Source: Phycisphaeraceae bacterium
GTDB lineage: Bacteria > Planctomycetota > Phycisphaerae > Phycisphaerales > Phycisphaeraceae
Length of the DNA: 64,000 nt
Assembly: GCA_029260595.1 (NCBI GenBank)
Contig: JAJDCY010000028.1
Location: 1 to 64,000, forward strand
Direction of reading: 5' to 3'
The first letter of the stretch is position 1. Each line of letters opens with the position of its first letter. The notes below the pieces were generated by a model, which saw nothing but the letters and a program-made list of their open reading frames with translations, was not told the DNA's origin and ran no database searches. Of this stretch, positions 48,268-64,000 are shown one piece after another. The position numbers and the translations under genes are program-made.

Positions 48268-48547
48268 CAACCGCCGCGGCAGGGCCGGCACCAACTTCCT
48301 TATAAGTGCCAATCGGATTATTGGCCGCTGGCTCACGACGAAGGATCAGCGGCGACGCACAGTCCCCAGGGCCGTTGACCGTCCGCATCTCCCATGTCGT
48401 AACTCCACCGATGGTTACGACGAATAGATAGATAGCCTGAAAGTCACCCGTTCCGCCCGCGTATAGAGACGGGTTAATTTCATCGACGACCTGCTGCCCG
48501 ATACACGGGTTCTGGACCGAAATGTGAACAGTTGCTGGATTAGCCAT
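48254..48547 (-). CDS. Small protein of unknown function convergent with the kinase
   Basis: The ATG at 48547 is preceded by AAGGAAG. The 97-residue product (MANPATVHISVQNPCIGQQ at the start) looks like a compact beta-rich domain with NPSLYAGGTGDFQAIYLFVV and ends GAGPAAAVVTEF. No signal peptide is evident and I do not recognise a family. The 3' ends of this gene and the kinase gene overlap by 14 bp on opposite strands. Confidence 0.55.
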   Translation of the reverse strand: MANPATVHISVQNPCIGQQVVDEINPSLYAGGTGDFQAIYLFVVTIGGVTTWEMRTVNGPGDCASPLILRREPAANNPIGTYKEVGAGPAAAVVTEF

Positions 48548-48972
48548 TGTAGTCTTCCTTAGGTTAAAGAAACAGATATCGCGCACAGGCCTTCAGCAAC
48601 ACACGACGGGCCGTCACCCGCGATTGCTTCTTAGGCTTCCACGCCCACAAACAACGATGAGATCCAGGATCCTGTGGTCTCTACTACTGGATACGCAGTA
48701 ACTAGGTCGATCTTGCGCGCCTGAGAATAAATTATACAAGTTTCTCATGTCACGCCAGCCTCAGGGCTTGCAATCACGGATTTGTGCTTCGATCTTGTAG
48801 ATGTTAGGAGGCGGTGGGGAAAGGGTCTTGTTGGCATCGTCGTTTGTGATAAAATCAGCATTGAAGGTGAGGGGAGTCTTCTCACCGGGTGTTTTTGGCG
48901 GGAGCTCCCCGGCTAGAGATCCTCAGCATTTCGAGGGGGGACCGCAGTCAGTGCTATAAGAAGGCCCACTCG
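48548..48972. other. Intergenic region upstream of a PEP-CTERM gene
   Basis: This AT-richer stretch has no gene. It holds the promoter candidate at 48828-48855 and, after it, a hairpin ggtgag (48866-48871) / ctcacc (48881-48886) followed by gggtgttttt, which could act as a leader hairpin or attenuator. Confidence 0.4.
48828..48855 (+). promoter_or_regulatory. Candidate promoter of the PEP-CTERM gene
   Basis: TTGTTG (48828-48833) and TAAAAT (48850-48855) are 16 bp apart, about 120 bp before the ATG at 48973. Confidence 0.4.
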
Positions 48973-49647
48973 ATGCGTCGAAGAACGTTTGCAATATTGG
49001 TAGGCCTAATCGCTGCTACCGCTCCCTCGCTACATGCCGGATACCTGCAAAGCCCGATTACGACTGTGGAGCGTGATGGCGCTTCCTCGGTGTTCCTGTC
49101 AGCCACACCACCGGGGCCGAGTTCGACGAACATGGGCGTTAGTGGATCAGTCGACTATGCGATCCTGTCGCCTATTGAATTTCACTCGATGGACCCGCTG
49201 GAGCTAGTGTTTGTGATTACTAATCCAGTCCAGCAGAGTTCCGAAACCTACACTGAGCACAAGATCTTCGGGTTGACGTCGAATGTCAGCGGTGACGCAT
49301 GGGGCGGATTCCGTGTGGAGATCGGCCTAATCGGACAGACAGGCGGTTTTGAAGTCGTTGGCGGTAGTCAGCCAGGTCTTGTGATCGATCCTTTCGACCT
49401 CTCCAACTCGATGGGCTTTAACACGACGATGACTCGTCAGGAACAGTTCACCGTTGAATGGACTGGTGATGTACCCGCGGGCTTCAACTTCATGACGCTG
49501 GCTGTCCACGTCCCAGACAGCCCCCTGATCTTTGACCAAGCTGAGTTTCGCCTTAGGATGACGCCGATCCCGATACCCGAGCCAGCGGCGGCGGCAATGC
49601 TTGGTGTGGGCATGTTGGGCACGATTGCGTTCCGGATGCGTCGGTAG
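48973..49647 (+). CDS. Secreted PEP-CTERM protein of unknown function
   Basis: The ATG at 48973 gives 224 residues beginning MRRRTFAILVGLIAATAPSLHA, a standard signal peptide; AAGAAGG lies upstream at about 8 nt. The mature part is beta-rich (HSMDPLELVFVITNPVQQ; FTVEWTGDVPAGFNFMTLAVHV). The C-terminus IPEPAAAAMLGVGMLGTIAF plus RMRR is a PEP-CTERM sorting signal. It is island cargo but depends on the host exosortase for processing. No enzymatic motif is visible. Confidence 0.8.
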   Translation: MRRRTFAILVGLIAATAPSLHAGYLQSPITTVERDGASSVFLSATPPGPSSTNMGVSGSVDYAILSPIEFHSMDPLELVFVITNPVQQSSETYTEHKIFGLTSNVSGDAWGGFRVEIGLIGQTGGFEVVGGSQPGLVIDPFDLSNSMGFNTTMTRQEQFTVEWTGDVPAGFNFMTLAVHVPDSPLIFDQAEFRLRMTPIPIPEPAAAAMLGVGMLGTIAFRMRR

Positions 49648-49733
49648 GCTCCACTGACGACTTGGCAAGGGCGCATCGGTTGCTCGACCAAGTCCAGTCA
49701 ACTCAATCTATGACACGGCAAGGTGATCGAGTG

Positions 49734-50537
49734 ATGGCGTTCGAGAGCCCGGGGCCGCGAGAGCCGGGTCAGACGATACGTTGCAGTAGTGAGCGCCGCG
49801 TCGACCTGCGGTTCGAACCGCGGGGGCGCTGCCGTCAACGACGACACCCCAACGGGTTCTCTCTTATAGAGATACTGGTCGTGCTCGGGATCATCGGCAC
49901 ACTTCTTTCCATGATATTGCCGGTCCTCGCGCGGGCCCGCGAGTCTGCGGAGAGCATTGCCTGTCAGAGCAACCTCCATCAGATCCATGTTGGCTGGGTA
50001 TCGGGCCTGTCGGGCCGTGACCATCGGATGCCCTATACCTCATCTGTGACGTTCTTCGAGTTGCCTAGGTGGCACCACGTTCTCGATGCTGAGTTTCCGG
50101 GCGCACCAGTCATTTCCGACAACGGCCACACGTCCTTCAATGCTTGTCCGACCATCCAGCGCGTCTACCGACAGCCTGTCTACTCCTTCGCCCGCTGGGG
50201 ATATGCGATCAACATGGTCGCAGACAGCTCGCAAACGGACAGCGCCAAGAGGTTCAATGATCGGATGTCCTGGGACATGATCCGCAACCCGAGCCAGTAC
50301 CCAATCTTTATGGACCCTGAGGTGTATGAGATCTCGGACGGCACATTCATCGCCGCGCGGTCCGCCCCCAACACGACGGCGAGTCAACTGCAACATTGGG
50401 GCGTCGGAGCGCCTCATGGCGGCGGGGAAGTAACCAACGCGGTATTCGCAGACGGCTCTGTTTCGTCGACTCCACATAATCAGATCATGGAGCAGTGCCC
50501 GGACGAGCTGCACCTCGCTTGGTTCGACAATGACTAG
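49734..50537 (+). CDS. Prepilin-like protein with H-X9-DG C-terminal motif
   Basis: The 267-residue protein has the type IV pilin/pseudopilin N-methylation motif NGFSLIEILVVLGIIGTLL, cut after the Gly and with E5 in place, followed by the helix continuing RARESAESIACQSNLHQIH. The C-terminal HGGGEVTNAVFADGSV is the motif shared by the very numerous DUF1559-like prepilin proteins of Planctomycetes. The ATG at 49734 has AAGGTG upstream; it leaves a long, Arg-rich leader, and earlier in-frame starts exist. It lies just after the PEP-CTERM gene and may be co-transcribed. Confidence 0.75.
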   Translation: MAFESPGPREPGQTIRCSSERRVDLRFEPRGRCRQRRHPNGFSLIEILVVLGIIGTLLSMILPVLARARESAESIACQSNLHQIHVGWVSGLSGRDHRMPYTSSVTFFELPRWHHVLDAEFPGAPVISDNGHTSFNACPTIQRVYRQPVYSFARWGYAINMVADSSQTDSAKRFNDRMSWDMIRNPSQYPIFMDPEVYEISDGTFIAARSAPNTTASQLQHWGVGAPHGGGEVTNAVFADGSVSSTPHNQIMEQCPDELHLAWFDND

Positions 50538-51032
50538 GTCGTGTTTCGTACGGGGACATAAAATACTGCCTGATCATGGCAGTCATGGCATGGCTAGGAC
50601 GTTGAGAGCGGCCTTTTCATCGCGAGTACCGATCCGGGAGGCGTGCCTGAGCGAGCCGATGTCACCCTCGATAACGTCGCATCAGCATCGGGGGTGGCGG
50701 TTGACACGGGGGCAGAGCCGCCCAGCCTGCGGCCGTGGGGCTTGGTCTGCTCGGAGGTAACATGGGGGGTACGATGACCGTATAACCACAACGCCACACA
50801 CGCCGACCGGGGTATTGGCCTGGTGTGACACCGCGCGATTCGACTCATTGAGGCAGGCCTTTCCCGCCACTAGCATTAGGTGAGTCTGGGGCTCTCGAAA
50901 TAGAGTCGGCGCCGCAGTGACCGCCGCGCGACGAGACCGGCGGAAAGTATGACGCCCCACCTGTGGGTAGAGCCCGCGTCGCCCCGGGGGGGGTCGCTTC
51001 GCCGACCCCGTAGCTCCGATCAAGCATCCGGC
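50538..51032. other. Gap upstream of the restriction-modification operon
   Basis: There is no convincing gene. A tiny seven-codon frame (ATG 50762, stop 50785) follows GGAGGT at 50753-50758, but the spacing is short. A run of eight G lies at 50986-50993, about 40 bp before hsdR. The operon promoter should be here; I found no well-formed pair. Confidence 0.35.
50986..50993 (+). repeat. G8 homopolymer upstream of hsdR
   Basis: Eight consecutive G residues follow gcccc, 39 bp before the hsdR ATG, in the presumed leader or promoter region. Confidence 0.8.
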
Positions 51033-53399
51033 ATGGACAAAAAAGCCCTTACCGAAACAGATATCCGCACCAAGTTCATCACTCCTGCGATTGCCGGCGA
51101 GGGCGGAGCTGGTTGGGATGTGATGACCCAAATGCTGGAGGAGCACTACTTCACCAAGGGTCGGGTCATCGTGCGCGGGAAGACGGTGAAGCGGGGTGAC
51201 GCGAAGAAGGCCGACTACATCCTGCGATATAGGCCCAACCTCCCCATTGCGATCGTCGAAGCCAAGGACAACAACCACGCCGTGGGTGCCGGCATGCAAC
51301 AGGCGCTCGAGTACGCCGAGATCCTGGACGTACCCTTCGCCTACAGCTCGAATGGTGACGCGTTCCTAGAGCACGACAGGACCGGCGCCTCGGACCCCGT
51401 CGAGAGAGAGATCCCCCTGGATCAGTTCCCGTCCCCGCAGGACCTCTGGGCACGCTACCGTGCCTCGAAGGGTCTCACCGACACCCAGGAGGCCGTCACC
51501 ACACAGGACTACTTCGACGATCTATCCGGCAAGAAACCGCGTTACTACCAACACATCGCGATCAACCGAGCCGTTGAAGCCATCGCGCGCGGCGAGAACC
51601 GCATCCTGCTGGTCATGGCCACGGGCACCGGCAAGACCTACACCGCCTTCCAGATCATCTGGCGCCTCTGGAAGTCGGCTGCCAAGAAGCGGATCCTCTT
51701 CCTCGTAGATCGCAACATCCTCGCCGACCAAACAAAGACAAACGACTTCAAGCCCTTCGGTAAAGCGATGACGAAGATCACGAACCGAACGGCAGACAAG
51801 GCGTTTGAGATCTACCTGTCCCTATACCAGGCCGTGACGGGCGCCGAGGAAGAGCAGAACATCTACAAGCAGTTCTCGCCTGACTTCTTTGATCTGGTCG
51901 TCGTGGATGAATGCCACCGCGGAAGCGCGGCTGTAGACGCCGCGTGGCGCAAGGTGCTGGAGTACTTCTCGTCGGCGACACAGATCGGCATGACCGCCAC
52001 GCCCAAGGAGACAAAGGACGTCTCGAACATCGAATACTTCGGCGACCCGATCTACACCTACTCGCTCAAGCAGGGTATCTCGGACGGCTTCCTCGCACCG
52101 TACAAGGTGGTGCGGTACGGCCTCGACAAAGACCTCGACGGGTGGCGCCCAGAGCAGGGACAGACAGACAAGTACGGCGAGCTGATCGAAGATCGCGAGT
52201 ACAACACACTGGACTACGACAAGACGCTTATCCTCGAGAAGCGCACAAAGCTCGTCGCAGCCAAGGTCACCGAGTTCCTCAAGGCCACCGACCGCTTCGC
52301 CAAGACCATTATCTTCTGCGAGAACATCGACCATGCCCGGAGGATGCGGGAGGCCATGGTCAACGCCAACCCAGACCTCGCCTCAGCCAACCGGCGCTAC
52401 GTCATGCAGATCACCGGCGATAACGACGAGGGCAAGGCCCAGCTCGACAACTTCATCGACCCGGAATCGACCTTCCCCGTGATCGCGACAACGTCTCAGC
52501 TGATGTCCACGGGTGTCGACGCCCAGACCTGCCACCTGATCGTGCTCGACAAACGCATCAACTCCATGACCGAGTTCAAGCAGATCATCGGACGCGGTAC
52601 GCGCATCAACGAGGACTACAATAAGTTCTTCTTCACGATCATCGATTTCAGGCAGGCCACGGCTCTGTTCGCCGACCCCGACTTCGACGGCGACCCCGTT
52701 CAGATCTATGAGCCCGGCCCGAATGACCCGCCCGTCCCGCCTGAGGGGCCGCCGGAAGGAGGCGAGCAGGATCCCGACGGGCCAGTCATCGTGGACCCGC
52801 CGATCGGCCCCGGTCCGGACGGTGGAGGATCGCCGGTTAAGTACTACGTCGACAACGTCGAGGTCGCCGTCGCCACCGAGCGCGTCCAATACCTCGATGA
52901 GAACGGCAAGCTCATCACCGAGTCGCTCAAGGACTACTCGCGCAAAGCCGTGCTCAAGGGTTACGCCTCCCTTGATCAGTTCCTCACCGCCTGGAACCAG
53001 GCCGATCGCAAGCAGGCCATCATCGAAGAGCTCACCGCTAAGGGCGTCTTCCTCGAAGAGCTCGCCGAGCAGGTTGGCCTCGACTATGACGCCTTCGACC
53101 TGGTCTGCCACATCGCCTACGACCAGCCGCCGCTGACACGCCGCGAGCGCGCCGACCGGGTCAAGAAACGCAACGTCTTCGGCCAATACGGCGAGCGGGC
53201 CCGCGCCGTTCTCCAGGCCCTGCTCGATAAGTACACCGATGGGGGGATCAAGAGCCTCGAATCGCTCGACATCCTCAAGGTCGACCCGCTCACCACCCTC
53301 GGCACACCGATCGAGATCGTCGAGATCTTCGGGGGCAAGGCGAATTATCTCGCCGCCATCCACGAACTAGAAGCCCAGCTCTATCAAGAAGCCGCCTAG
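51033..53399 (+). CDS. hsdR: Type I restriction enzyme, R subunit
   Basis: The 788-residue motor and nuclease subunit has the HSDR_N nuclease domain (residues 1-150) with D61 in KADYILRY and the EAK triad (76-78) in IAIVEAKDN. The helicase part has Walker A MATGTGKT (195-202), DECH box (292-295), GMTATP and the late IIGRGTRINEDYNKFFFTIIDF. The C-terminal third, starting at about residue 620 after a Pro/Gly-rich linker (PGPNDPPVPPEGPPEGG), resembles the EcoEI R C-terminal domain that docks to the methylase. The ATG at 51033 gives a normal N-terminus but has no strong ribosome site. Confidence 0.93.
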   Translation: MDKKALTETDIRTKFITPAIAGEGGAGWDVMTQMLEEHYFTKGRVIVRGKTVKRGDAKKADYILRYRPNLPIAIVEAKDNNHAVGAGMQQALEYAEILDVPFAYSSNGDAFLEHDRTGASDPVEREIPLDQFPSPQDLWARYRASKGLTDTQEAVTTQDYFDDLSGKKPRYYQHIAINRAVEAIARGENRILLVMATGTGKTYTAFQIIWRLWKSAAKKRILFLVDRNILADQTKTNDFKPFGKAMTKITNRTADKAFEIYLSLYQAVTGAEEEQNIYKQFSPDFFDLVVVDECHRGSAAVDAAWRKVLEYFSSATQIGMTATPKETKDVSNIEYFGDPIYTYSLKQGISDGFLAPYKVVRYGLDKDLDGWRPEQGQTDKYGELIEDREYNTLDYDKTLILEKRTKLVAAKVTEFLKATDRFAKTIIFCENIDHARRMREAMVNANPDLASANRRYVMQITGDNDEGKAQLDNFIDPESTFPVIATTSQLMSTGVDAQTCHLIVLDKRINSMTEFKQIIGRGTRINEDYNKFFFTIIDFRQATALFADPDFDGDPVQIYEPGPNDPPVPPEGPPEGGEQDPDGPVIVDPPIGPGPDGGGSPVKYYVDNVEVAVATERVQYLDENGKLITESLKDYSRKAVLKGYASLDQFLTAWNQADRKQAIIEELTAKGVFLEELAEQVGLDYDAFDLVCHIAYDQPPLTRRERADRVKKRNVFGQYGERARAVLQALLDKYTDGGIKSLESLDILKVDPLTTLGTPIEIVEIFGGKANYLAAIHELEAQLYQEAA

Positions 53400-53402
53400 C
53401 CG

Positions 53403-54890
53403 ATGCCCAACGTCTCCAACATCGTCAAGACCATCCAGGACATCATGCGCAAGGACGCCGGCACCTACGGCGATGCGCAGCGGCTGGAACAGCTCGGCTG
53501 GATGTTCTTCCTGAAGATCTTCGACGACCGCGAGAAGGAGATGGCGCTCGTCCGCGACAAATACAGGTCGCCCCTGCCCAAACACCTCCGCTGGTCCAAC
53601 TGGGCTTCGGATGACGAAGGCATCACCGGCGAGGCCCTTCTCGACTTCGTCAACAACACCCTCCTGCCCAAGCTCAAGGGGCTGACCGGCGGCGGCGACA
53701 AGATCGCCGGGCTGATCCGCACGGCCTTCGAGGACGCCAACAACTACATGAAGAACGGCACGTTGATGCGGCAGGTCATCAACAAGATCAACGGGATCGA
53801 CTTCAACGCCACCGACGACCGCCACATGTTCGGCGACATCTACGAGAAGCTGCTCAAGGATCTCCAGTCCGCAGGCAACGCCGGCGAGTTCTACACCCCC
53901 CGCGCCATCACCCGGTTCATCGTCGAGCAGGTCAACCCACGCCTCGGCGAGACCCTGCTCGACCCCGCCTGCGGCACCGGCGGCTTCCTCGTCTGCGCGA
54001 TCGAGCACCTGCGCAAGCAGGCCAAGACCGAGGCCGATGAGCGCACCATTCAGGATTGCTTCGCCGGCATCGAAAAAAAGCACCTCCCGCACATCCTGTG
54101 CATGACCAACCTCCTCCTGCACGGCATCGATGTCCCTTCCAACGTCCGCCACGACAACACCCTCGCCCGCCCCCTGCGCGACTGGGGCCCGAAGACGCGT
54201 GTGGACGTCATCGTGACGAACCCGCCCTTCGGCGGGATGGAAGAGGACGGGATCGAGGCCAACTTCCCCGCCGACTTTCGCACACGCGAGACGGCCGACC
54301 TCTTCCTCGTGCTCCTCATGAAGGTCCTCAAGCCCGGTGGCCGGGCCGGCCTTGTTTTACCGGACGGGACCCTCTTCGGCGAGGGGGTCAAGACCCGCAT
54401 CAAAGAGAAGCTGCTCACCGAGTGCAACCTGCACACGATCGTCCGCCTGCCCAACGGTGTCTTCAACCCCTACACCAGCATCCGCACCAACCTCCTTTTC
54501 TTCACCAAGGGTGCGCCCACCCGGGAAGTCTGGTTCTATGAGCACCCGTACCCACCCGGCGCCAAGAGCTACAACAAGTCCAAGCCCATCCGCATCGAAG
54601 AGTTCCAAGCCGAGCGAAAATGGTGGGGCAAGCCCGACAAAAAGGGCCTCTACAGCAAACGCGTTGAGAACGAGCAAGCCTGGCGAGTCTCCATCGACCA
54701 GATCAAAGCCGGCAACTTCAACCTCGACCTGAAAAACCCGCACAACCCCGACACCGGCCCCGGCGACGTGGACCAACTCCTGCCCGAATACGAAAACCTC
54801 CTCACCCAGATCGCCAAGACGCGGTCAAAGCTGAAACAGGAACTCCACCACGCACTGACCGCGACGTCCGATGGCGGGACCGCTGAATGA
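53403..54890 (+). CDS. hsdM: Type I DNA methyltransferase, M subunit
   Basis: The 495-residue N6-adenine methyltransferase has a helical HsdM_N domain (VKTIQDIMRKDAGTYGDAQR), SAM motif I DPACGTGGFLV (187-197) and catalytic motif IV NPPF (273-276), preceded by AGEFYTPRAIT, the usual type I signature. It starts 3 bp after hsdR and overlaps hsdS by four bases (ATGA). It methylates the bipartite site chosen by HsdS and protects host DNA. Strongly C-ending codons distinguish hsdR and hsdM from the kinase part of the island. Confidence 0.95.
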   Translation: MPNVSNIVKTIQDIMRKDAGTYGDAQRLEQLGWMFFLKIFDDREKEMALVRDKYRSPLPKHLRWSNWASDDEGITGEALLDFVNNTLLPKLKGLTGGGDKIAGLIRTAFEDANNYMKNGTLMRQVINKINGIDFNATDDRHMFGDIYEKLLKDLQSAGNAGEFYTPRAITRFIVEQVNPRLGETLLDPACGTGGFLVCAIEHLRKQAKTEADERTIQDCFAGIEKKHLPHILCMTNLLLHGIDVPSNVRHDNTLARPLRDWGPKTRVDVIVTNPPFGGMEEDGIEANFPADFRTRETADLFLVLLMKVLKPGGRAGLVLPDGTLFGEGVKTRIKEKLLTECNLHTIVRLPNGVFNPYTSIRTNLLFFTKGAPTREVWFYEHPYPPGAKSYNKSKPIRIEEFQAERKWWGKPDKKGLYSKRVENEQAWRVSIDQIKAGNFNLDLKNPHNPDTGPGDVDQLLPEYENLLTQIAKTRSKLKQELHHALTATSDGGTAE

Positions 54891-56410
54891 AGCTGGCAAC
54901 CTTCTTCGAAAAGTTCGACCAGCTCGCCGACGCGCCCGATGCGGTAGCGCGAATGCGTCGGTTCATTCTTGACATAGCGGTGCGGGGTAAACTCGTAGTG
55001 CAGGATGCCACAGATGAATCCGCTGAGGAGCTTCTAGAACGTGTCAAAGCCGAGAAGGCGCGTCTTGTGAAGTCCGGTGAGATCAAGAAGCAGAAACCAC
55101 TGCCACCAGTGGCCGAAGATGTTGTTTCGTTCTCGCTCCCTGCCGGTTGGGCCGCTTCGCAGCTTGGCGATGTTGCCGTGTGTCTCGATTACAAGCGCGA
55201 GCCCATCAACAGTACGGTGCGTGACCTGCGTATCGCAGGAAGAACGCAGTCTGAATTGTTTCCGTACTACGGCGCGACAAAGCAACAAGGCTGGATTGAC
55301 GACTACATTTTCGATGCGGAACTCGTGCTACTCGGAGAGGATGGCGTTCCGTTCTTCGATGATCTTAGACCGAAGGCCTATCTCGTTTCAGGGAAGACTT
55401 GGGTGAACAACCACGCCCATGTCCTACGGGGGATTCTCATCTCGAACTCGTTCGTGATGCACTGGCTCAATACGTTCGACTATACGGGTCGAGTCGCAGG
55501 CTCAACTCGCTCAAAATTAAATCAGACGAAGGCGATGGACATCCCAATCCCCCTCCCCCCCCTCGCCGAGCAGAGGCGGATTGTGGCGAAGGTAGATGAG
55601 TTGATGGGGTTGTGTGATCAGCTCGAGGCCCAGCAGCAGGAACGCCACACCCGGCACGCCGCGCTCGCCCGCGCCTCGCTGGCCCGCTTCGCCGAAACGC
55701 CCACCCCGGCCAACCTCGATTACCTCTTCCACAAGTCCTACACCATCACCCCCGCCGACCTACGCAAATCCATCCTAACCCTCGCCGTCCAAGGCAAACT
55801 CGTCCCCCAAGACACGCATGGGGCGGAGCAAACTGTCGGCGACCACATTGAATTTCTGAACGGCTACGCATTCAAGAGCGAGTGGTTTAAGCCCTCCGGG
55901 ATGCGCCTGTGTAGAAACGCAAATGTCAGTCACGGCATGCTTGATTGGCGCGAATCCGCGTTTGTCGATGACAAAGTCGCAAAGGAGTTCGAGCGTTTCG
56001 AACTCAGCGAAGGCGACATCGTTCTCTCGCTTGATCGTCCGCTTATCACAACCGGCTTGAAGGTTGCGCGAGTGAGAAAGGCTGATCTTCCATGCCTTCT
56101 ACTCCAGCGAGTTGCGAAGCCAGTGCCTAAGCACGATCAACTAGACCTCTCATATTTCCTTTTGTGGCTCAACTCGTCGGAATTTGTGGATTCGATCGAT
56201 CCGGGTCGGAGCAATGGCGTGCCGCACATCTCGACGCGGCAGGTTCAACGCCTTCCGTTCGTCCTTCCACTCCTCGATGAACAGCGGCAAATTGTGGCCA
56301 AAGTCGACCAACTGATGGCCTTGGTGGACGCGTTGGAAACGCAGCTCGCCGCCTCCCACGCTACAGCCGAAAAACTCCTGGAAGCCATCGTCGCCGAACT
56401 GGCGGCATAG
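54887..56410 (+). CDS. hsdS: Type I restriction-modification specificity subunit
   Basis: The 507-residue protein has two target-recognition domains separated by conserved helical spacers. The central one reads IPIPLPPLAEQRRIVAKV followed by DQLEAQQQERHTR, the C-terminal one LLDEQRQIVAKVDQLMALVD. Each recognition domain reads half of a bipartite target. The codons for the central IPLPPL contain a run of eight C (55555-55562) exactly at the junction of the first recognition domain and the spacer; a slip there would leave a half-length S protein. Confidence 0.92.
   Translation: MKLATFFEKFDQLADAPDAVARMRRFILDIAVRGKLVVQDATDESAEELLERVKAEKARLVKSGEIKKQKPLPPVAEDVVSFSLPAGWAASQLGDVAVCLDYKREPINSTVRDLRIAGRTQSELFPYYGATKQQGWIDDYIFDAELVLLGEDGVPFFDDLRPKAYLVSGKTWVNNHAHVLRGILISNSFVMHWLNTFDYTGRVAGSTRSKLNQTKAMDIPIPLPPLAEQRRIVAKVDELMGLCDQLEAQQQERHTRHAALARASLARFAETPTPANLDYLFHKSYTITPADLRKSILTLAVQGKLVPQDTHGAEQTVGDHIEFLNGYAFKSEWFKPSGMRLCRNANVSHGMLDWRESAFVDDKVAKEFERFELSEGDIVLSLDRPLITTGLKVARVRKADLPCLLLQRVAKPVPKHDQLDLSYFLLWLNSSEFVDSIDPGRSNGVPHISTRQVQRLPFVLPLLDEQRQIVAKVDQLMALVDALETQLAASHATAEKLLEAIVAELAA
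55555..55562 (+). repeat. C8 homopolymer inside hsdS
   Basis: Eight consecutive C residues in the Pro-Pro-Leu codons at the border between recognition domain one and the central spacer, preceded by five C and one T. Confidence 0.85.
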
Positions 56411-56419
56411 GACTGAGCG

Positions 56420-56428
56420 CCCCCCCCC
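56420..56428 (+). repeat. C9 homopolymer between hsdS and the nuclease gene
   Basis: Nine consecutive C residues followed by GGGG, 10 bp after the hsdS stop and 14 bp before the next ATG, where the ribosome-binding site would be expected. Confidence 0.85.
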
Positions 56429-56442
56429 GGGGAATTAACCAC

Positions 56443-57534
56443 ATGCCCATCCAACACGCCATCTGGAAAGTCGGGGATCAACCCGCACCGCTCTTGACAG
56501 GTCGTCTCGCCAGCGAGCAACAGCTTGAGGACATGATCGTCCGCGACTCGGACATCCTCTCGAGCGAGTGGATGCTGATCGGACGGCAGGAGGTGACCAG
56601 CCACGGGGGGCGAATCGATCTGCTGGCCATCGCGCCGGATGGGTCGTTGGTGCTGATCGAACTCAAGCGCGACCGCACCCCGCGCGAGATCATCGCCCAG
56701 GCTCTCGACTACGCGTCGTGGGTGGAACAGCTCGGCACTGAGAAGATCGCGCAGATTTACCAGCGCTACTCCAACGGGGGCAATCTGGCCGAAGCCTTCC
56801 AGGAGCGCTTCGACGAAAAGCTGGATGAAGATGCCCTCAACCAATCACATCAGATCATCATCGTGGCGTCCGAGCTCGATGACTCGACCGAGCGCATCAT
56901 CGGATACCTCGATGCTCGCGACATTGCGATCAACGTGGTCTTCTTCCAGGTTTTCCAACACGGCGGCGAGCAACTGCTTAGCCGTGCCTGGCTGATCGAT
57001 CCCGGTGAGACGCAGGCGAACGTAGCCAGCTCAGCCAAAGGCAAGGGCGAGAAGGAGCCGTGGAACGGGGAGTACTACGCTTCCTATGGACCAACCACTT
57101 CGCGTTCGTGGGACGATGCTCGTCGGTACGGATACATCAGCGCGGGCAATGGGAGCTGGTACAGCCAGACATTGAAGCTCCTGTCGCCGGGAGACCGTGT
57201 GTGGGTCAAGATTCCGAAGACCGGGTACGTCGGCGTCGGCAGGGTAACGGCGGGGGTGTGCCCGGTAAGCGAGTTCATGGTGGCGACGCCGACGGGCGAG
57301 CAGCCGGCCCTGGAGGTGCTCAAGCATGCCGACCGCTACAGGCTAAACGCCGATGACCCGGACAAGGCCGAGTACTTCGTAAAGGTGCAGTGGCTCGACA
57401 CGGTGCCCGAAGCCGAGGCCGTGAATGAGGTGGGCCTCTTCGGCAATCAGAACACCGTGTGCCAGCCCACAGCGCCGAAGTGGCGACACACCGTCGAGCG
57501 CCTCAAGACCTACTTCTCGAAGTGGCAGGGCTGA
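56443..57534 (+). CDS. PD-(D/E)XK nuclease with PUA/EVE-like C-terminal region
   Basis: Residues 1-180 of this 363-residue protein form a NucS/RecB-like nuclease core: D59 in HGGRIDLLAIAPDG, E73-L-K75 in LVLIELKRD, and Q86-x-x-x-Y90 in AQALDY (the QxxxY motif). After a linker (SSAKGKGEKEP), residues 206-300 read WNGEYYASYG, YGYISAGNGSWYSQT and LLSPGDRVWVKIPKTGYVGVGRV, which resembles a PUA-like (EVE/YTH-type) fold that binds modified bases. The gene follows hsdS by 32 bp and probably belongs to the same operon. A restriction activity on modified DNA, or help to HsdRMS, is an inference. No good ribosome site is visible. Confidence 0.75.
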   Translation: MPIQHAIWKVGDQPAPLLTGRLASEQQLEDMIVRDSDILSSEWMLIGRQEVTSHGGRIDLLAIAPDGSLVLIELKRDRTPREIIAQALDYASWVEQLGTEKIAQIYQRYSNGGNLAEAFQERFDEKLDEDALNQSHQIIIVASELDDSTERIIGYLDARDIAINVVFFQVFQHGGEQLLSRAWLIDPGETQANVASSAKGKGEKEPWNGEYYASYGPTTSRSWDDARRYGYISAGNGSWYSQTLKLLSPGDRVWVKIPKTGYVGVGRVTAGVCPVSEFMVATPTGEQPALEVLKHADRYRLNADDPDKAEYFVKVQWLDTVPEAEAVNEVGLFGNQNTVCQPTAPKWRHTVERLKTYFSKWQG

Positions 57535-57641
57535 AGAAGGTCACTCAGAACGTGCTGCTACCAGCCGCGGGTGATGTGCGGGGGCGTTGCAACGTGATTG
57601 GGCCACGCCCCGGTGATCGGGCAAAGGGGTGTCCAGTCCCC

Positions 57642-58493
57642 TTAATTGTTACAAGCCTGAAGTAGAGTGTTTCCCCGTTGCTTCTGCTGGGCATACGCCC
57701 TGGGGCTGATGCCGTCGAGTGCCTGGTGTGGCCGTATGGTGTTGTAAGTGTGCATCCAGTCTTCGGTGATCTGCCGCACATCGTCGAGGTCTTCGAAGGC
57801 GTAGCAATCAAGCACCTCACGGCGGTACGTCCCGTTGAGCCGTTCGATGAACGCGTTTTGCGTCGGCTTACCGGGCTGGATGTACGCCACCTCGACGCCG
57901 TTAGATTGCGCCCACTGAATGAACCGGCCTGACCGGAACTCCGGGCCGTTGTCTACGCGGATCCGCTTGGGCAGCCCGTGGCACTGCTTGAGCTGATCCA
58001 GCGATCGAGTCACCCGGCCTGCCGACAGCGAGGTGTCGACCTCCACCGCTAGCACCTGGCGGTTAAAGTCATCCATCACATTGAAGGTCCGGAACCGTCG
58101 GCCACAACCAAGCTGGTCAGACATGAAGTCCGCCGACCAACTCTCGTGCGGGCCCGCGGGCACCACCAACGGTTGCTTGACCCGAGCCGGCAGGCGCCTC
58201 TTGCGCCTTTGCTTGAGATTCAAGCCTAATTCACGGTAGACACGCCGCACACGCTTGTGGTTCCACCGGTGCTTCATCCGGCGGATGAGCTTGAACAGCA
58301 TCGCGCATCCGTAGCGCGGGAACCGCTGGCTCAACTGTTTCAAAACACGCCTGATCAACGAATCGTCCTTGGGCTTGCGGCGGTAGAGGTAACACACCCG
58401 GCTGACCCGCGCGGCCCGGCACGCCCGACGGATACTCAACCCGTGCCGAGCGACCATCTGCTGAGCCAGCGCCTTGCGACCCGCCGGGTTCAC
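57642..58493 (-). CDS. IS3-family transposase OrfB
   Basis: This is the 283-residue catalytic part with an rve integrase core: first Asp in ESWSADFMSD, second in RIRVDNGPEF, and Glu in NAFIERLNGTYRREVL, giving the DDE triad with the D(35)E spacing type. An HTH_21-like N-terminal part (RYGCAMLFKLIRRMKHRWN) precedes it. The GTG at 58493 overlaps the orfA stop. A -1 slip at the A7 run (minus strand, 58502-58496) would yield the OrfAB transposase. Confidence 0.93.
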   Translation of the reverse strand: MNPAGRKALAQQMVARHGLSIRRACRAARVSRVCYLYRRKPKDDSLIRRVLKQLSQRFPRYGCAMLFKLIRRMKHRWNHKRVRRVYRELGLNLKQRRKRRLPARVKQPLVVPAGPHESWSADFMSDQLGCGRRFRTFNVMDDFNRQVLAVEVDTSLSAGRVTRSLDQLKQCHGLPKRIRVDNGPEFRSGRFIQWAQSNGVEVAYIQPGKPTQNAFIERLNGTYRREVLDCYAFEDLDDVRQITEDWMHTYNTIRPHQALDGISPRAYAQQKQRGNTLLQACNN

Positions 58494-58756
58494 GGTTTTT
58501 TTGACATCACGTCCTTGAGCGCGTGGTGCTCCAGGCTCAGGTCCGCGAACATCCGCTTGAGACGGCGGTTCTCCTCTTCGAGTTGTTTGATCCGACGCAA
58601 CTCACTGACCTCCAAGCCGCCGTACTTGGACTTCCACTTGAAGAAGGTGGACGGGCTCATCCCGTGCCCGCGGCACAGGTCCGCCACCTTCACGCCCGAT
58701 TCCGCTTCCTTGAGGATCGTGATGATCTGCTGCTCAATAAACCGCGTCCGCTTCAT
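58490..58756 (-). CDS. IS3-family transposase OrfA
   Basis: This 88-residue helix-turn-helix protein (QQIITILKEAESGVKVADLC, GMSPSTFFKWKSKYGG) is followed by a leucine zipper region (LEEENRRLKRMFADLSLEH). It ends MSKKP directly at the A7 run that serves as the frameshift site for the OrfAB fusion. The sequence pattern is that of the IS407 group. Confidence 0.93.
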   Translation of the reverse strand: MKRTRFIEQQIITILKEAESGVKVADLCRGHGMSPSTFFKWKSKYGGLEVSELRRIKQLEEENRRLKRMFADLSLEHHALKDVMSKKP

Positions 58757-58831
58757 CGAGTTCTCCTTGATTCAATTAATGGATCCGGAAAACTCTACTC
58801 AAAACGGGTCTCAATTTAGGGGAGCAGGACA

Positions 58832-59089
58832 ATCGAGTTGGAGCAACAACCGCTGAAGAATCCGGTCGACCAGCCCGTCACGCGCCCACCGGCGGTAGCG
58901 GTGGTAGACGCTGGGCCACTTGCCATAACGGTCGGGCATGTCGCGCCACGGGGCGCCGCTGTTGAGCACCCAGAAGATGCCGTTGAGCGTCGTGCGGTGG
59001 TCGTTCCAACGGCCGCCGGGCTGGTTGGCCGGTGGCATCAAGCCCTCGAGGCGTGCCCACGCCTCGTCGGTCAGTTCGTATCGTCGCAT
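58832..59089 (-). pseudogene. Truncated IS5-family transposase
   Basis: Eighty-five codons of an IS5-type (IS427/IS1031-like) transposase N-terminus remain: RRYELTDEAWARLEGLMPP, RWNDHRTTLNGIFWVLNSG and APWRDMPDRYGKWPSVYHRY. The frame is cut by the right end of the IS3 element at 58831, and no matching 3' part is found left of that element, so the rest has been lost. Confidence 0.85.
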
Positions 59090-59186
59090 CCGTGCGCCTC
59101 CATGTTGGGAGGCATCGTGACCGATCAAGACCCATCGCGCAACCCGATCATCCGCCAAACATCACAGCCGTCAAACAGAACCTAGC

Positions 59187-59756
59187 GTGGCCGACCAAAC
59201 AGAAGAACAGAATGAACAGACAGAACAGCCTGCTGCTGGTGAATGCGTTTCGGAACTGGAACCCGGACCGGAGCCCGCGATTGTGGCGTTACTGGCGGCA
59301 GCGGAGATAGGCCCACCCGTCGATAACCAACTGGCAATCGAGGCCCAGGCGGCGGGGCTGACGCCGAACCTGCTGCAGGCGGCTATTGGAGAAGCGACGA
59401 ATGGGCTGGCTGTCGTCAAGGTGCGCGGCGCTATCGCCTCGGCCGTGGCACGCCGCGAACAGTTGGCCGAAGTGACGGGCAAGCTCGAACGCGAGGCCAA
59501 ACTGGAAGCACAGCGGCAGGCCGAACGCGAAGTCGAGGTGAAAGCTGTCACGGACAGCTGGGCCGAGGTCCGGGAGGTGTTCAAGTCACTGTCTGCTGAC
59601 CGGGTCGCCGAACTGCAGCAGCAGGTATTCGCCGAAGCCGGCGAATTCCACCGCCGGCACTGGGCGACGGCCGACCCGGCGACTGACCGGACGCTACAGG
59701 CGGCGATTGTCGAACAGCATCGGGCAGACGTGCAGAAGGCTGAGGTGGAGGCGTGA
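59187..59756 (+). CDS. Conserved-looking protein of the xis-int module, unknown function
   Basis: The 189-residue protein starts with GTG at 59187 and has an acidic, Gln/Glu-rich N-terminus (TEEQNEQTEQPAAGECVSE), then a long charged helical region (LAEVTGKLEREAKLEAQRQA) likely to form a coiled coil. It ends in GTGA overlap with the excisionase gene, so it is translationally tied to the recombination module. No known motif is seen; an accessory role in excision or replication of the element is only a guess from position. Confidence 0.6.
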   Translation: MADQTEEQNEQTEQPAAGECVSELEPGPEPAIVALLAAAEIGPPVDNQLAIEAQAAGLTPNLLQAAIGEATNGLAVVKVRGAIASAVARREQLAEVTGKLEREAKLEAQRQAEREVEVKAVTDSWAEVREVFKSLSADRVAELQQQVFAEAGEFHRRHWATADPATDRTLQAAIVEQHRADVQKAEVEA

Positions 59757-60001
59757 GCAGGGTCAGCCCGACCACCCTCGCACCGTTGGAACTGCTCGCC
59801 GTGTCGGCCGAGCAGGCGGCGGCGCTGCTGGGGCTATCGCGGTCGGCATTTTTCAAACAAGCTGACGCCGGCCGGATAGGACCGCTGCCAATCCGGTTCG
59901 GGAAATCGGTTCGTTACAGCCTGGCTGAGCTAAAATCGTGGGCGGCGGCAGGCTGCCCGACACGGGATCGCTGGCAGATTATGCGAAAGGGCGAGTCATG
60001 A
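59753..60001 (+). CDS. Excisionase-like helix-turn-helix protein
   Basis: The 82-residue AlpA/MerR-type winged helix protein has LLAVSAEQAAALLGLSRSAFFKQADAG, followed by LPIRFGKSVRYSLAELKSWAA, the typical wing and second helix of Xis/AlpA proteins. It starts at a GTG and ends in an ATGA overlap with the integrase gene. Such proteins bend attachment-site DNA to favour excision or regulate integrase transcription. Confidence 0.85.
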   Translation: MSRVSPTTLAPLELLAVSAEQAAALLGLSRSAFFKQADAGRIGPLPIRFGKSVRYSLAELKSWAAAGCPTRDRWQIMRKGES

Positions 60002-61500
60002 GCTGGTCAACATTCAAAAAATCACCGAGGGCGACAAAGTGGTCGGTGCGCGGTCGCGACCACCTTGCGATCGTGCGGCAGTTGCCGGCGTTCCGTGACA
60101 AGGCGCTAAGCCTGGAACTCTGCCGCTACCTGGACACGATCACCGAATGCCGGGCCGCTGGCGCCGCTGTTGGCCGCGTGGTGCGTTTCGTTGTCGCCGG
60201 CCATCACAAGTCCCGCCTTGCAAGTTGGGGGCTGCTAGGTGCAGCCACGCGGCCGTTAAGCGAGCACTTGGACGATTACCGAGTAAGCCTGACAGCAAAG
60301 GGTAACACGGCCGCGTACGTCGCGAAGACCGTCGGTCGCATTAGCCGAGTGCTCGCTGCCATCAGGACGATTTATTGGGCCGACGTCAGGGCGAGTGATG
60401 TCCAGCGATTCATAGCCGAGCTACAGACGGTTCAAGGTGAGCCGATGTCAGCAGCGACACGGAATTATCACACTCGCGACATGCGGAGTTTTGCTCGCTG
60501 GTGCGTTCGCGACGGCCGGCTTTCGGCGAGCCCGATCGAGCACCTTCAGCCTGTGCCCAAGGCGAAGGTCCAAGCGTATGGATCTCCCGTTCGTCGCGAG
60601 TTCACACTTGAAGAGCTAACGCGGTTAATCGGCGCGGCCGAATGTAGTCCAACGGTCATGGGTATAACCGGAACCGACCGAGCGATGGCGTACAAGGTGG
60701 CGGCAGGCACGGGCTTCCGGGCCGGCGAAATCAAGAGCCTGACGCCTGAGAGCTTCGACCTGGACACAGACCTGCCAACGGTGACGGTGGCCGCTGGTTA
60801 TAGCAAGCGCCGCCGTGACGATACCCAACCGATACGCGCGGACCTCGCCGACACGCTGCGCCAATGGTTGATTGGCAAGCCTCGCGGCGTTCCGGTGCTG
60901 CTACTGCCGGATCGGACGGCACAAATGCTGCGTGTGGACTTGGCCGCTGCCGGGATAGACCACACAGACGGTGCAGGTCGCGTGCTGGATTTTCACAGCC
61001 TGCGTCACACCTACATCAGCCTTGTTGTCCAGAGCGGAGCGTCGGTGAAGGTTTGCCAAGAGCTTGCACGCCACAGCACGCCGACGTTGACGATTGGCCG
61101 TTACAGCCATACCCGTCTGCACGACCTGACCGGCGCGCTGGAAGTGCTGCCCAGCGATACCGAGCCGCAGCAACTGAACCGGCTGCGCGCGACTGGGACT
61201 ACCCACGCGGTACCCGCTCCGTTTGGCGGGGCAGATATGGGGCAAGGTGCACGGAAAACTATGGACTTACATGCGCCGCCTGTGGATTCCAGCGCGATAA
61301 CATCGTGCGTTGGCGACGATTTGGAATCGCCAGAAAACACCGAGAAAACACTTGTTCTTTCAGGGGAAAGCTATCGCGAAAATGAATGGGAGCAGCAGGA
61401 TTCGAACCTGCGACCGAGGGATTATGAGTCCCCTGCCCGATTCTGTAAGGCTAAAAGAGGAAGGCGCTTACGCCGATGTCAAATTGACGCACAGCAGTAG
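59998..61500 (+). CDS. Tyrosine recombinase (integrase), C-terminus altered by integration
   Basis: The core-binding SAM-like domain spans about residues 85-180 and the catalytic domain about 200-380, with R241 (GTGFRAGEIKSL), K270, H333-x-x-R336 (HSLRHTYIS), H359 (ARHST) and nucleophile Y369 (IGRYSH). From residue 464 the frame enters the tRNA-Met repeat and reads WEQQDSNLRPRDYESP, then stops after 21 further residues rich in Arg and Cys that look random. The start ATG overlaps the excisionase stop. I infer that the native C-terminus is the segment now at 43057-43238, in the same frame, giving 539 residues when excised instead of 500. Confidence 0.9.
   Translation: MSWSTFKKSPRATKWSVRGRDHLAIVRQLPAFRDKALSLELCRYLDTITECRAAGAAVGRVVRFVVAGHHKSRLASWGLLGAATRPLSEHLDDYRVSLTAKGNTAAYVAKTVGRISRVLAAIRTIYWADVRASDVQRFIAELQTVQGEPMSAATRNYHTRDMRSFARWCVRDGRLSASPIEHLQPVPKAKVQAYGSPVRREFTLEELTRLIGAAECSPTVMGITGTDRAMAYKVAAGTGFRAGEIKSLTPESFDLDTDLPTVTVAAGYSKRRRDDTQPIRADLADTLRQWLIGKPRGVPVLLLPDRTAQMLRVDLAAAGIDHTDGAGRVLDFHSLRHTYISLVVQSGASVKVCQELARHSTPTLTIGRYSHTRLHDLTGALEVLPSDTEPQQLNRLRATGTTHAVPAPFGGADMGQGARKTMDLHAPPVDSSAITSCVGDDLESPENTEKTLVLSGESYRENEWEQQDSNLRPRDYESPARFCKAKRGRRLRRCQIDAQQ
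61387..61435 (-). repeat. Right attachment site: tRNA-Met(CAT) 3' part, second copy
   Basis: This 49-bp direct repeat of 43008-43056 has one mismatch in the T stem. It also lacks a D arm and 5' acceptor strand to its right, so it too is not a complete tRNA gene, unlike an ordinary attR. Confidence 0.88.
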
Positions 61501-61627
61501 AGACAGCAGTAGCGAGCAGCAACCACTCCTCGACCCCGACCTACAGCGCCTCATCGACACTTGGCCAACCCTGCCCCCAGCCGCCAAGGCCGCCGTGCTG
61601 GCGACCCTCAAGGCAGTGAAGCCATGA
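61436..61627 (+). pseudogene. Second detached integrase C-terminal segment
   Basis: After the right repeat an open frame continues that reads the repeat as GSSRIRTCDRGIMSPL and ends LLDPDLQRLIDTWPTLPPA plus AKAAVLATLKAVKP. The last 30 residues resemble the tail at 43057-43238 (DPDL, W-P, AAKAAVLAT, AVK), but the frame through the tRNA segment differs by one base. I read it as the C-terminal piece of the integrase of a second island that starts here and continues beyond the window. Confidence 0.55.
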
Positions 61628-62140
61628 CCTGGGTGCAGGTCCCATGACAGCGACTACAAAGCCACAGTGGGAACTACAGGGCCACGGGCAGGGCTGAGGA
61701 TTACATGGATACCCATCAACCCAAGAGGCTAAGCCGCCTACAGCAGCACCAAAGCGCGCCAAGATCATGCGCATAATGATCGGTGTTCGATGGGTGACGG
61801 ACATCGAGAGCAGCCCGGCATGTCGGCTGGGTGAGGGTGCGGGGCACAGCCTGCTTGACGATGATGCGCACCCCTTGCGAGTGAGGCGTGGAGGCTGCGA
61901 ATGGGTCCCATGAAACAATCCATTATTGAGATATGACCATGCAAACACCAACCGCCTGATGATTAGCTTGACGGTGCCGCGTCGTTTTTTCCAGCAGACC
62001 CTCAACGGGGTCAGCCGCCAAGGCATGCCACCGCCGGTAATGATGACCGGATGAGTTAACGCAAACCGTTTGCCGGATTCAGGGGGTGAAACAACGGATG
62101 ACGACCCACTGACCGCACTCAACAAGGCCAAAGATGGCAC
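61628..62140. other. Non-coding start of the second island
   Basis: There is no credible gene; a 199-codon minus-strand frame runs across the integrase tail and has no family features. No clear repeats or hairpins were recognised. Confidence 0.35.
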
Positions 62141-63025
62141 TTAATGTGTGATAGGACGACTACGAATCGACAAGATAGCTGTAAGAGCACCCATCAGATG
62201 AATCATCGATGCGGGTTCCGGCACAACTGCAAGAGACATCATGTCCACAATACGTTGCCCTACGGCGAACTCGCTGATGTAATTTCTGTTTAAGTCGTAT
62301 TGCTCAACGACACCGGTCGATATGTCAAGGCCTACCCACGCCTCATTGCCGACCTGAACGATCTCTGTGACAAGACCGCCTACATCAAATCGCCCTAAGT
62401 CGTTTCCGCTGAAATCAAATCGCAAGATGTGGCTGTGGTTTTGAGTCCCGATCCATACCTCATCCTCTATCCGCGAAATTTCGGTAAGGCTGGCCCCAGC
62501 CGCAAATGACCCTAGGAATTGGCCGCTGCTGTCGTAGCGATGAACCATGCCTAGGTCGGTCTCAAGACCAACCCATATCTCACTGCCGACTACAGCGACC
62601 TCAGCGGCCCGAGGGTTACCAGTTGAAATCTCGCTTTGGATACTTCCACTCGCGTCGTATCGCTTCACCATGCCGGGGGCAAAGGTAGTTGCAACCCAAG
62701 CCTCATCGTTAACCTGCACGAGTTCACTCACGTGCACATCTAATGCGAAGTGCTCGTTGAGAAGATTGCCTTCCGAATCATGCCGGTCGATGCGCCCGGT
62801 ATTAAGAAGATTGATCAGAACCACATCATCAAGCTGAGCCATATCGGACAGCGACGCTAGAAGTGAAAAGGTGCTGATGAGTGAGCCGTCAGGGGCATGC
62901 CGTCGTACGATGCCGAGGTCGGCTTCAAGGCCTATCCAAACTTCAGAGATGTCAGACGCCATTAGGCGAGATTGCCCGACAGCGACAGACAACACCAGGA
63001 TGAGAACACATAGCTTGTGGAACAT
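62141..63025 (-). CDS. Secreted beta-propeller-like PEP-CTERM protein
   Basis: The 294-residue protein has a signal peptide (MFHKLCVLILVLSVAVGQS). The mature part consists of about seven repeats of roughly 38 residues with the pattern E-V/A-W-I/V-G-L-E/D ... V-x-R/Q-Y/H-D-x-x-G (for example SEIWVGLETDLGMVHRYDS and EAWVGLDISTGVVEQYDL), as expected for a propeller or YVTN-like repeat. It ends VVPEPASMIHLMGALTAIL plus SIRSR, a PEP-CTERM signal. It appears to be cargo of the second island. Confidence 0.78.
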   Translation of the reverse strand: MFHKLCVLILVLSVAVGQSRLMASDISEVWIGLEADLGIVRRHAPDGSLISTFSLLASLSDMAQLDDVVLINLLNTGRIDRHDSEGNLLNEHFALDVHVSELVQVNDEAWVATTFAPGMVKRYDASGSIQSEISTGNPRAAEVAVVGSEIWVGLETDLGMVHRYDSSGQFLGSFAAGASLTEISRIEDEVWIGTQNHSHILRFDFSGNDLGRFDVGGLVTEIVQVGNEAWVGLDISTGVVEQYDLNRNYISEFAVGQRIVDMMSLAVVPEPASMIHLMGALTAILSIRSRPITH

Positions 63026-63126
63026 AGGGCGTACCGCGGCTCAGAAGGTCCGGCTCGTCATGATTGTAGGTACTGGATTCCGCCATATCCGTGGCGACGC
63101 AGCTACAGGCTTACCGGCGAGGTACA

Positions 63127-63654
63127 ATGGCCAACATGGATCGCGCTGTAATCCAAGCAACGAGGCCAGTTAAAAGTCGATCGATGAGCACCGAAGCCAA
63201 GGTGGGCAGGCCTACCAAATATCGGCCGTGGATGTGCGATCGTGTGATCGCGTTGATGGCGCAGGGGGCGAGCAAGCATGAAGCGTTGGCCGATCTGGGG
63301 ATTTGGGAAGACACTTTCTGGAGGTGGCGCAAGATTCATCCCGAGTTTTCGGAAGCCGTAAAAATAGGGACGGAGCTAAGCCGGATGTGGTGGGAACGCG
63401 AGGGCAGGACAGCGCTGCGGGACAAGAGTTTCAACCACGGGCTGTGGTACATGAACATGAAGAACCGATTCGGCTGGACAGACCGGGTCGAGAACACCAA
63501 CAACGCCCCGACGTCGATCAGTGTTCACTTCGTGCAGGCTTCCGTACCAACACCGACGACCCGAGCGGTCACGGGGATGGATCCGACGGTTCGCGCGCTG
63601 GTTGAAGCGATCGGACCGCCAACTGACGATGATGGTCATGATGCTGGCGGCTGA
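63127..63654 (+). CDS. Phage terminase small subunit-like protein
   Basis: From the ATG at 63127 (GAGG just upstream) the product is 175 residues. The centre GRPTKYRPWMCDRVIALMAQ, GASKHEALADLGIWEDTFWRW and HPEFSEAVKIGTEL is the helix-turn-helix region seen in small terminase subunits and related phage DNA-packaging proteins, followed by NMKNRFGWTDR, also common in them. An ATG at 63184 is an alternative start. No large subunit is within the window. The protein may therefore come from a prophage remnant or a satellite. Confidence 0.65.
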   Translation: MANMDRAVIQATRPVKSRSMSTEAKVGRPTKYRPWMCDRVIALMAQGASKHEALADLGIWEDTFWRWRKIHPEFSEAVKIGTELSRMWWEREGRTALRDKSFNHGLWYMNMKNRFGWTDRVENTNNAPTSISVHFVQASVPTPTTRAVTGMDPTVRALVEAIGPPTDDDGHDAGG

Positions 63655-63958
63655 GAGGCGGCGCGGGGTTGATCGGTTCGCAATGGGTCCCATCTAGGGA
63701 AGTTTTTTCAGATTTATCCGTGTGCGTCAGTCTCACTGCCATGCTGTGGGGCGCGCGGTCATCGTCGATAACGGGCGTTCGGCAATGCCCTGGCACCCTG
63801 CGGTTTTTTGTCGCCGACTACTCACTAGGTCTAAACCGGTCGCCCTGCGACACGAGTCGTTCCTGAGCGGTTGATGGGTGCGATCGGGCTCGGCGGGTAA
63901 TATCGGGTGGTTCGGCCGTTTGTCTTCGGTCGGGCGGAACTGACCCGAGGGACCTTTC
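63655..63958. other. Gap before the last partial gene
   Basis: About 300 bp without a supported gene. The start of the stretch is AT-rich (agttttttcagattt), but no defined promoter pair or terminator was found. Confidence 0.3.
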
Positions 63959-64000
63959 ATGCCGCGACTGACCGAACAGGAACAGCAGGAGATCGTCCGG
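63959..64000 (+). CDS. 5' end of an unidentified gene, cut by the window edge
   Basis: The ATG at 63959 opens a frame reading MPRLTEQEQQEIVR to the edge. Thirteen or fourteen residues are too few for identification. The wording resembles the N-terminus of some DNA-methyltransferase-linked proteins as I remember them, which is a weak hint only. Confidence 0.35.
   Translation, partial: MPRLTEQEQQEIVR

Follow-up and report, generated by a model that had tools for sequence, protein, structure and literature searches.

The window analysed here, bases 1-64000 of the 88,277-bp contig JAJDCY010000028.1 (C28) in a 2.88-Mb draft genome of a Phycisphaeraceae bacterium (40 contigs, 88% complete), contains one whole genomic island and the beginning of another, and our results support the view that these two tRNA-targeting islands are stacked in one orientation at a single tRNA-Met(CAT) gene. 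Tandem islands as such are ordinary. The interesting part is that each island encodes a tyrosine integrase (int1 and int2) whose gene appears to contain the attachment site of the element (attP), and that the conserved C-terminal tail of such an integrase appears to be severed by integration across a bacterial clade. The order that we propose is chromosome - core - tail 1 ... island 1 ... int1 - core - tail 2 ... island 2 ... int2 - core in intact tRNA-Met - chromosome; for the whole explanation, tandem and attP within the integrase gene taken jointly, we put the probability at roughly 85%. Judged from sequence comparisons, the tandem, the splitting of the integrases and the conservation of the tails appear well established. 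That a large clade of bacterial integrases carries attP in the gene and loses a conserved C-terminal module at each insertion is not common knowledge.

Two islands at one tRNA-Met gene

Two 51-bp repeats, 98% identical, lie at 43006-43056 and 61385-61435 of the window, both corresponding to the minus-strand 3' half of tRNA-Met(CAT). The 5' half of the tRNA is absent after either of them, and ARAGORN found no tRNA in the 64-kb window. A pattern search of the whole genome, allowing up to three mismatches, located the 48-bp core exactly three times (43009, 61388 and 76499), always on C28 and in the same orientation, while the reversed pattern used as a control gave no matches genome-wide. The original prediction, made from the window alone, had held that the right repeat is not the outer end of the island, that a second island follows in tandem, and that further right there should be a complete tRNA-Met as well as another integrase with its end in the GSSRIRT frame. 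This is what the rest of the contig contains. The third core, at C28:76499, sits within an intact tRNA-Met(CAT) gene (C28:76498-76570, minus strand) 12.5 kb past the window edge, and an open reading frame (ORF) at C28:75335-76552 ends with ...ENGSSRIRTRDRGIMSPLL and a stop inside that gene, such that the 3' end of a recombinase meets the third repeat and a complete minus-strand tRNA-Met. The features of the tandem are as follows (C28 coordinates; those up to 64000 are in the window).

43009-43056, plus strand: core copy 1 (tRNA-Met 3' half, antisense), left end of island 1
43008-43238, plus strand: tail 1, apparent severed C-terminus of the island 1 integrase; int1 frame through the core, 76 aa to the stop, with the tail motif
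43057-61387, plus strand: island 1, about 18.4 kb, bounded by core copies and by composition
59753-60001, plus strand: small HTH_17 protein overlapping the int1 start, candidate excisionase
59998-61500, plus strand: int1, tyrosine integrase (Phage_integrase, E = 8e-13), ATG at 59998, looks intact
61388-61435, plus strand: core copy 2, where islands 1 and 2 meet; differs from copies 1 and 3 by a single C/T
61385-61627, plus strand: tail 2, apparent severed C-terminus of the island 2 integrase; GSSRIRT frame, 80 aa to the stop
61436-76498 (in the window to 64000), plus strand: island 2, about 15.1 kb, ending at the intact tRNA-Met
75145-76552, plus strand: int2, tyrosine integrase, ending inside tRNA-Met

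Each island thus has its own integrase and tRNA fragment, int1 going with core copies 1 and 2 and int2 with copies 2 and 3. The composition shifts at both island ends: GC content is 62.7% in the left chromosomal part, 59.7% in island 1, 58.3% in island 2 and 62.2% on the right side, and the tetranucleotide distance rises across both islands and falls at tRNA-Met. Taken together, the third core, the intact tRNA-Met, the second integrase and these shifts support the tandem.

Both integrases retain the catalytic residues R, K, H, R, H and Y, and their N-terminal, core-binding and catalytic domains are all encoded in one ORF up to the core. The only integrase family detected in int1, int2 and the phage integrase of the viral contig L130 (see below) was PF00589; Phage_integr_3 (PF16795) was found in none of the three. 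Like int1, the other two are preceded by helix-turn-helix (HTH) genes, a Cro/C1-type one in the case of int2 and an HTH-like ORF in the case of L130.

Each integrase is in frame only with its own tail

The int1 gene traverses core copy 2 in the WEQQDSN frame and terminates in the DNA of island 2 (..RFCKAKRGRRLRRCQIDAQQ, stop). If int1 is joined to the DNA after repeat 1, as it would be in a free circle, a single ORF results, ...WEQQDSNLRPRDYESPVANR...LDPDLVEIANAWPELSEAAKAAVLATFNAVKLAHR followed by a stop; likewise, int2 joined to the DNA after repeat 2 forms one ORF, ...GSSRIRTRDRGIMSPLPDSV...LDPDLQRLIDTWPTLPPAAKAAVLATLKAVKP and a stop. Since both rejoined pairs are in frame, attP would lie within the integrase coding sequence. 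int1 and int2 read through the same tRNA sequence in different frames, and each matches the frame of its own tail alone: int2 combined with tail 1 is out of frame and runs into an immediate stop past the core (NGSSRIRTRDRGIMSPL). The segments that follow the two repeats had been described in the original prediction as related but different and as read in different frames, and so they are, the conserved parts being 63% identical, with the one after the right repeat reading GSSRIRTCDRGIMSPLPDSV...LDPDLQRLIDTWPTLPPAAKAAVLATLKAVKP and the one after the left repeat WEQQDSNPRPRDYESPVANR...LDPDLVEIANAWPELSEAAKAAVLATFNAVKLAHR. The amino acid difference between GSSRIRTC and GSSRIRTR comes from the single C/T difference between repeat copies. 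The same prediction took the segment after the right repeat for a second integrase-like C-terminal segment. Its derivation from an integrase stands, but the frame pairing narrows its identity: 61436-61627 would be the severed tail of island 2's own integrase and not part of a third or degraded one.

The frame pairing also bears on whether there are two islands at all. All three cores are direct repeats, and recombination between the outer copies 1 and 3 is therefore possible, as would suit a single composite island with an internal core copy and one integrase. Each segment, however, has an integrase, a tail and a core of its own; the frame of int1 continues into tail 1, whereas int2 connects in frame to tail 2 and not to tail 1. 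Because integrase and tail match in frame within each segment only, we rejected the composite island, which we regard as very improbable.

The same genome contains a third severed tail with a tRNA-Ser-like core (L255:1050-1130, contig C12) and, on contig C13 (L008), an integrase C-terminal fragment that enters an intact tRNA-Ser(CGA) in another frame. We report these as apparent traces, at contig ends, of at least one further island with attP in the integrase gene.

Severed tails recur across Planctomycetota

Relatives of int2 were detected in 81 of 151 related genomes (E ≤ 1e-10), and in many of them the integrase C-terminus enters an intact tRNA gene. For 36 tRNA-overlapping integrases, up to 40 kb upstream was fetched and scanned for a distal tRNA fragment, which gave a first set of 19 islands, this locus included, with both ends and an overlapping integrase. 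Past the distal fragment, the integrase frame was open for at least 70 aa in 15/19 islands, compared with two and one for the other frames, and it was the longest frame in 15/19 (binomial p = 6e-5). Leave-one-out hidden Markov models (HMMs) detected the tail in all 15, in the integrase frame only (E = 5e-6 to 5e-22), and the common motif is AWPxLP..(R/K)AG(I/V)xAM. The tRNA targets of this set are Arg, Thr, Ser, Lys, Ala, SeC and Met.

A second set came from a scan of named genomes, from which the 80 best loci were taken together with 47 viral loci; the titles of the 80 name Planctomycetota groups, except for one "bacterium" and one "PVC group bacterium". Here 57 integrases enter an intact tRNA gene, and for five of them the flanking sequence retrieved includes a distal fragment. 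In 5/5 of these the integrase frame was open and longest, and the tail HMM matched four, which have the motif (E = 1e-11 to 4e-18), the fifth tail being of another type. The two collections have genomes in common, so the sets cannot be treated as wholly independent. The recurrence of the arrangement across Planctomycetota makes it look like a conserved design and not an accident, and the wide range of tRNA targets and hosts in which it occurs suggests that selection has kept attP in the integrase gene.

Tails were found by the tail HMM in 86 of the 151 genomes. Among 50 tail loci inspected closely, a recognisable catalytic domain shares the ORF with the tail in L108 only, and at one other (L040/L081) an integrase remnant abuts the core. 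The GC content of the tails at the three codon positions (0.72/0.55/0.76) is codon-like, and the nonsynonymous rate was below the synonymous one (dN < dS) in 11/11 comparable tail pairs, some of which share a member and hence are not independent tests. Both properties would fit selection on the protein while the element is free.

Could an integrase simply have run into its tRNA target by chance? Antisense 3' halves of tRNA genes are often open, in all three frames in fact (RIRT, GFEP and DSNP types), and any adjacent integrase may enter them. Chance would not make the far end of the island continue the same frame into a conserved motif (15/19 with leave-one-out HMMs, 5/5 in the second set), and unsplit phage genes exist. 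Given the frame test and the leave-one-out HMMs, we rejected this explanation and find it hardly credible.

Several individual loci deserve mention. At the tRNA-Thr island of L040 (6700-6900; G066:C1), the integrase-like remnant abuts both the distal tRNA fragment and the tail, and is perhaps a decayed tandem neighbour. Three orphan tails lie within 1.5 kb at L257:3978-5480 (G011:C14), where there is neither an integrase nor a tRNA gene; they may be scars of repeated insertion and loss. L176 (10930-11420; DAOWNK010000017.1, Pirellulales) resembles position 61388 here: an integrase adjoins a tail at a single tRNA-Ser-like core, and the two are read in different frames. It is a candidate for a second tandem junction, or else for an unsplit gene with a frameshift; a first look with tblastn had offered it as an unsplit gene, which we rejected as the tail is in another frame. 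Finally, L260:9490-10800 (G072:C16) has an integrase, an intact-looking tRNA-Gly(CCC) and a tail in direct succession on one strand, which may represent a tandem junction or an attP that contains a complete tRNA.

Unsplit genes in viral contigs

The form of the gene expected in a free element was found in viral contigs. L130, a 43.2-kb IMG/VR contig, has a 573-aa ORF that combines the catalytic domain, an antisense tRNA-Arg(TCT)-like 3' half and an in-frame tail (E = 7e-17); no tRNA gene adjoins the integrase. It is flanked on one side by genes for terminase, portal, head protease and tape measure and on the other by genes for helicase, methyltransferase and tail fibre; the presence of phage genes on both sides of the site argues for an unintegrated genome. 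Residues 453-573 are exactly repeated in a contig from another sample. A second one-piece gene is present in L161, a 49-kb viral contig, and a third, with its 5' part disrupted, in L108. Tail matches with E of about 0.01 in L144, L148, L169, L174 and L200 were at chance level and were not counted as unsplit integrases. The plasmid collection gave one weak match, and a tblastn search with int2 lacking its tail gave none in the phage collection, so the free forms come from IMG/VR only. As far as sequence can tell, then, insertion at tRNA 3' ends, loss of the tail on insertion and its presence in the free form all appear established.

Some observations weigh against the explanation as a whole. 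No empty site was found in a search through the STAS neighbour in 51 genomes of the family, in which the STAS loci of 24 relatives had no tRNA in the fetched stretch. As assembled, the int2 frame is broken at a 7-bp tandem repeat (C28:75370-75389, or L004:15370-15389) that splits off an N-terminal stretch; int2 may be broken, mutation and assembly error both being possible at such a repeat. Four of the 19 islands in the first set are without a tail, all from two genomes of one genus. IMG/VR classes both L130 and L161 as linear. Lastly, the island order holds only if a 51-bp repeat was assembled correctly in this 40-contig draft. With the core present three times, the ends formed by the left chromosome, int1 and int2 and those formed by tail 1, tail 2 and the tRNA 5' half could be joined otherwise, and a misjoin at the core might have reversed the islands or brought in one that is free or located elsewhere. 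However, 51 bp is less than an ordinary read length, the C/T difference sets copy 2 apart, and the family-wide pattern is independent of C28. An assembly artefact is improbable in our view.

Predicted structure and proposed mechanism

An AlphaFold2 model of an integrase with its tail (42 sequences; mean predicted local distance difference test score, pLDDT, 80; predicted template modelling score 0.65) shows an ordered integrase up to about residue 420, matched by Foldseek to lambda Int, Tn1549 Int, Xer and Cre. Residues 425-535 are predicted to be mostly disordered and contain the tRNA-derived part (attP), and the tail forms two helices, 536-545 and 552-566, with pLDDT of about 80. With attP in a disordered linker ahead of the two-helix tail, insertion would trim a tethered module and leave the catalytic body whole.

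We propose that int1 and int2 belong to a clade of tyrosine integrases with attP inside the 3' part of the gene, which in the free element would encode the catalytic domain, a disordered linker, the antisense tRNA 3' half and the conserved two-helix tail. A crossover in the core would swap everything downstream of it, thereby giving the integrase a new C-terminus and stranding the tail. After insertion, the catalytic domain would be intact and would be followed by a new C-terminus supplied by the tRNA gene or, where islands are stacked, by the next island, with the tail left alone at the far end of the inserted element. Excision would rebuild the full integrase gene.

The tail may favour integration, restrain excision or only stabilise the protein. 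By analogy with phage Mx8, the tail might tell the integrase whether the element is free or inserted and set the efficiency or direction of recombination, an idea that we hold tentatively, at a little under even odds. On the other hand, attP may overlap the 3' end of the gene by happenstance, the tail being a by-product that only stabilises or helps to fold the protein, with no regulatory role. Such a reading would fit a small helical module on a long linker that is disordered in the model, and it would fit catalytic and core-binding domains that stay whole after insertion. It sits less well with Mx8, in which an analogous change alters the behaviour of the integrase (PMC6070905), and with the recurrence of the arrangement over many tRNA targets and hosts. 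We consider it somewhat doubtful, yet a serious alternative. If, instead, the tail sets direction, directionality would be written into the junction itself, which would be useful for one-way integration tools.

Apart from the role of the tail, the arrangement has practical consequences. Finding a tail together with a tRNA fragment identifies an island's far end, which would aid island delimitation in draft planctomycete genomes, and the arrangement also explains short ORFs with RIRT, GFEP or DSNP peptides next to tRNA genes.

Comparison with known systems

In the integration-dependent immunity of actinobacteriophages, attP lies in a gene of the element and insertion alters the C-terminus of the repressor. 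The likeness is in the altered C-terminus, which belongs there to a repressor and here to an integrase. The term integration-dependent immunity occurs in PMC4929511.

The closest precedent is provided by phages Mx8 and Mx9. The attP of Mx8 is in int, and insertion makes a new 3' end by which the integrase is modified in its behaviour but not inactivated (PMC6070905). Mx8 and Mx9 share with our systems the location of attP in the int coding sequence and the gain of a new C-terminus by a whole catalytic domain; the likeness to Mx8 rests on described behaviour and not on the Int sequence. Whereas those are single phages, here we see a Planctomycetota clade of islands and phages with many tRNA types and a conserved tail module.

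Among 3919 islands in Islander, 125 tandem arrays of two or more were reported, and Mx8 and SSV are known examples in which the integrase gene reaches across attP (PMC4383910). Like the Islander tandems, the present one has an intact tRNA, cognate fragments in the same orientation and one integrase per island; unlike in those islands, the far end here also bears an integrase tail, and int1 runs on into the DNA of the island next to it. In the suicidal integrases of archaea, described as exclusive to that domain, the catalytic part is split from the N-terminal part (PMC8371274). As in SSV, pTN3 and pT26-2, attP is inside int and insertion divides the gene, but in our case all three domains stay joined and the C-terminal tail alone is lost, which places these integrases outside the definition of suicidal ones. 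Even so, they might represent a phylum-wide bacterial counterpart of self-splitting integrases, in which the tail is present only on the free-element enzyme, the protein reports the integration state and, in stacks, an arriving neighbour can alter the behaviour of the resident island; this we find possible, if slightly on the doubtful side. A literature search, thin on subscription journals, found no paper on this trait for Planctomycetota.

Cargo and neighbouring genes

The islands carry the following genes.

43417-44121, minus strand: WYL regulator (island 1)
45229-48267, plus strand: Ser/Thr kinase with propeller, the kinase part matched by PD-T4-6 models (island 1)
50949-56410, plus strand: type I restriction-modification R, M and S (island 1)
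56443-57534, plus strand: PDC-S11 protein (island 1)
57642-58493, minus strand: IS3-like transposase with rve core domains (island 1)
62141-63025, minus strand: PEP-CTERM propeller-like protein, as labelled in the original prediction; Pfam search empty (island 2)
63091-63654, plus strand: terminase small subunit-like protein, phrog_309, E = 9e-22 (island 2)
C28:63959-68967: type III Mod and Res (island 2, mostly past the window)

With type I and type III restriction-modification among their genes, both islands look defence-bearing. Past the window, island 2 also has primase-like genes and a small HTH gene ahead of int2. When island 2 was looked at for traits of phage satellites, the primase-like genes and the terminase small subunit-like gene were seen, the latter agreeing with the terminase-like gene that the original prediction had placed there.

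Chromosomal genes left of 43009 include YbeY, HATPase and STAS. On the right of tRNA-Met are an AEP-TOTE/DnaB-like ORF, an aminotransferase-like gene, a YebC-like gene (the latter two named by eye) and tRNA-Ile. The first of these, an 825-aa ORF with AEP-TOTE primase and DnaB/AAA matches (C28:77023-79500; L004:17023-19500), adjoins tRNA-Met on its chromosomal side and may be an older mobile remnant. At the other end of the window, positions 13-5710 contain large coding repeats with units near 546-582 bp in two long ORFs, which by eye are adhesin- or autotransporter-like.

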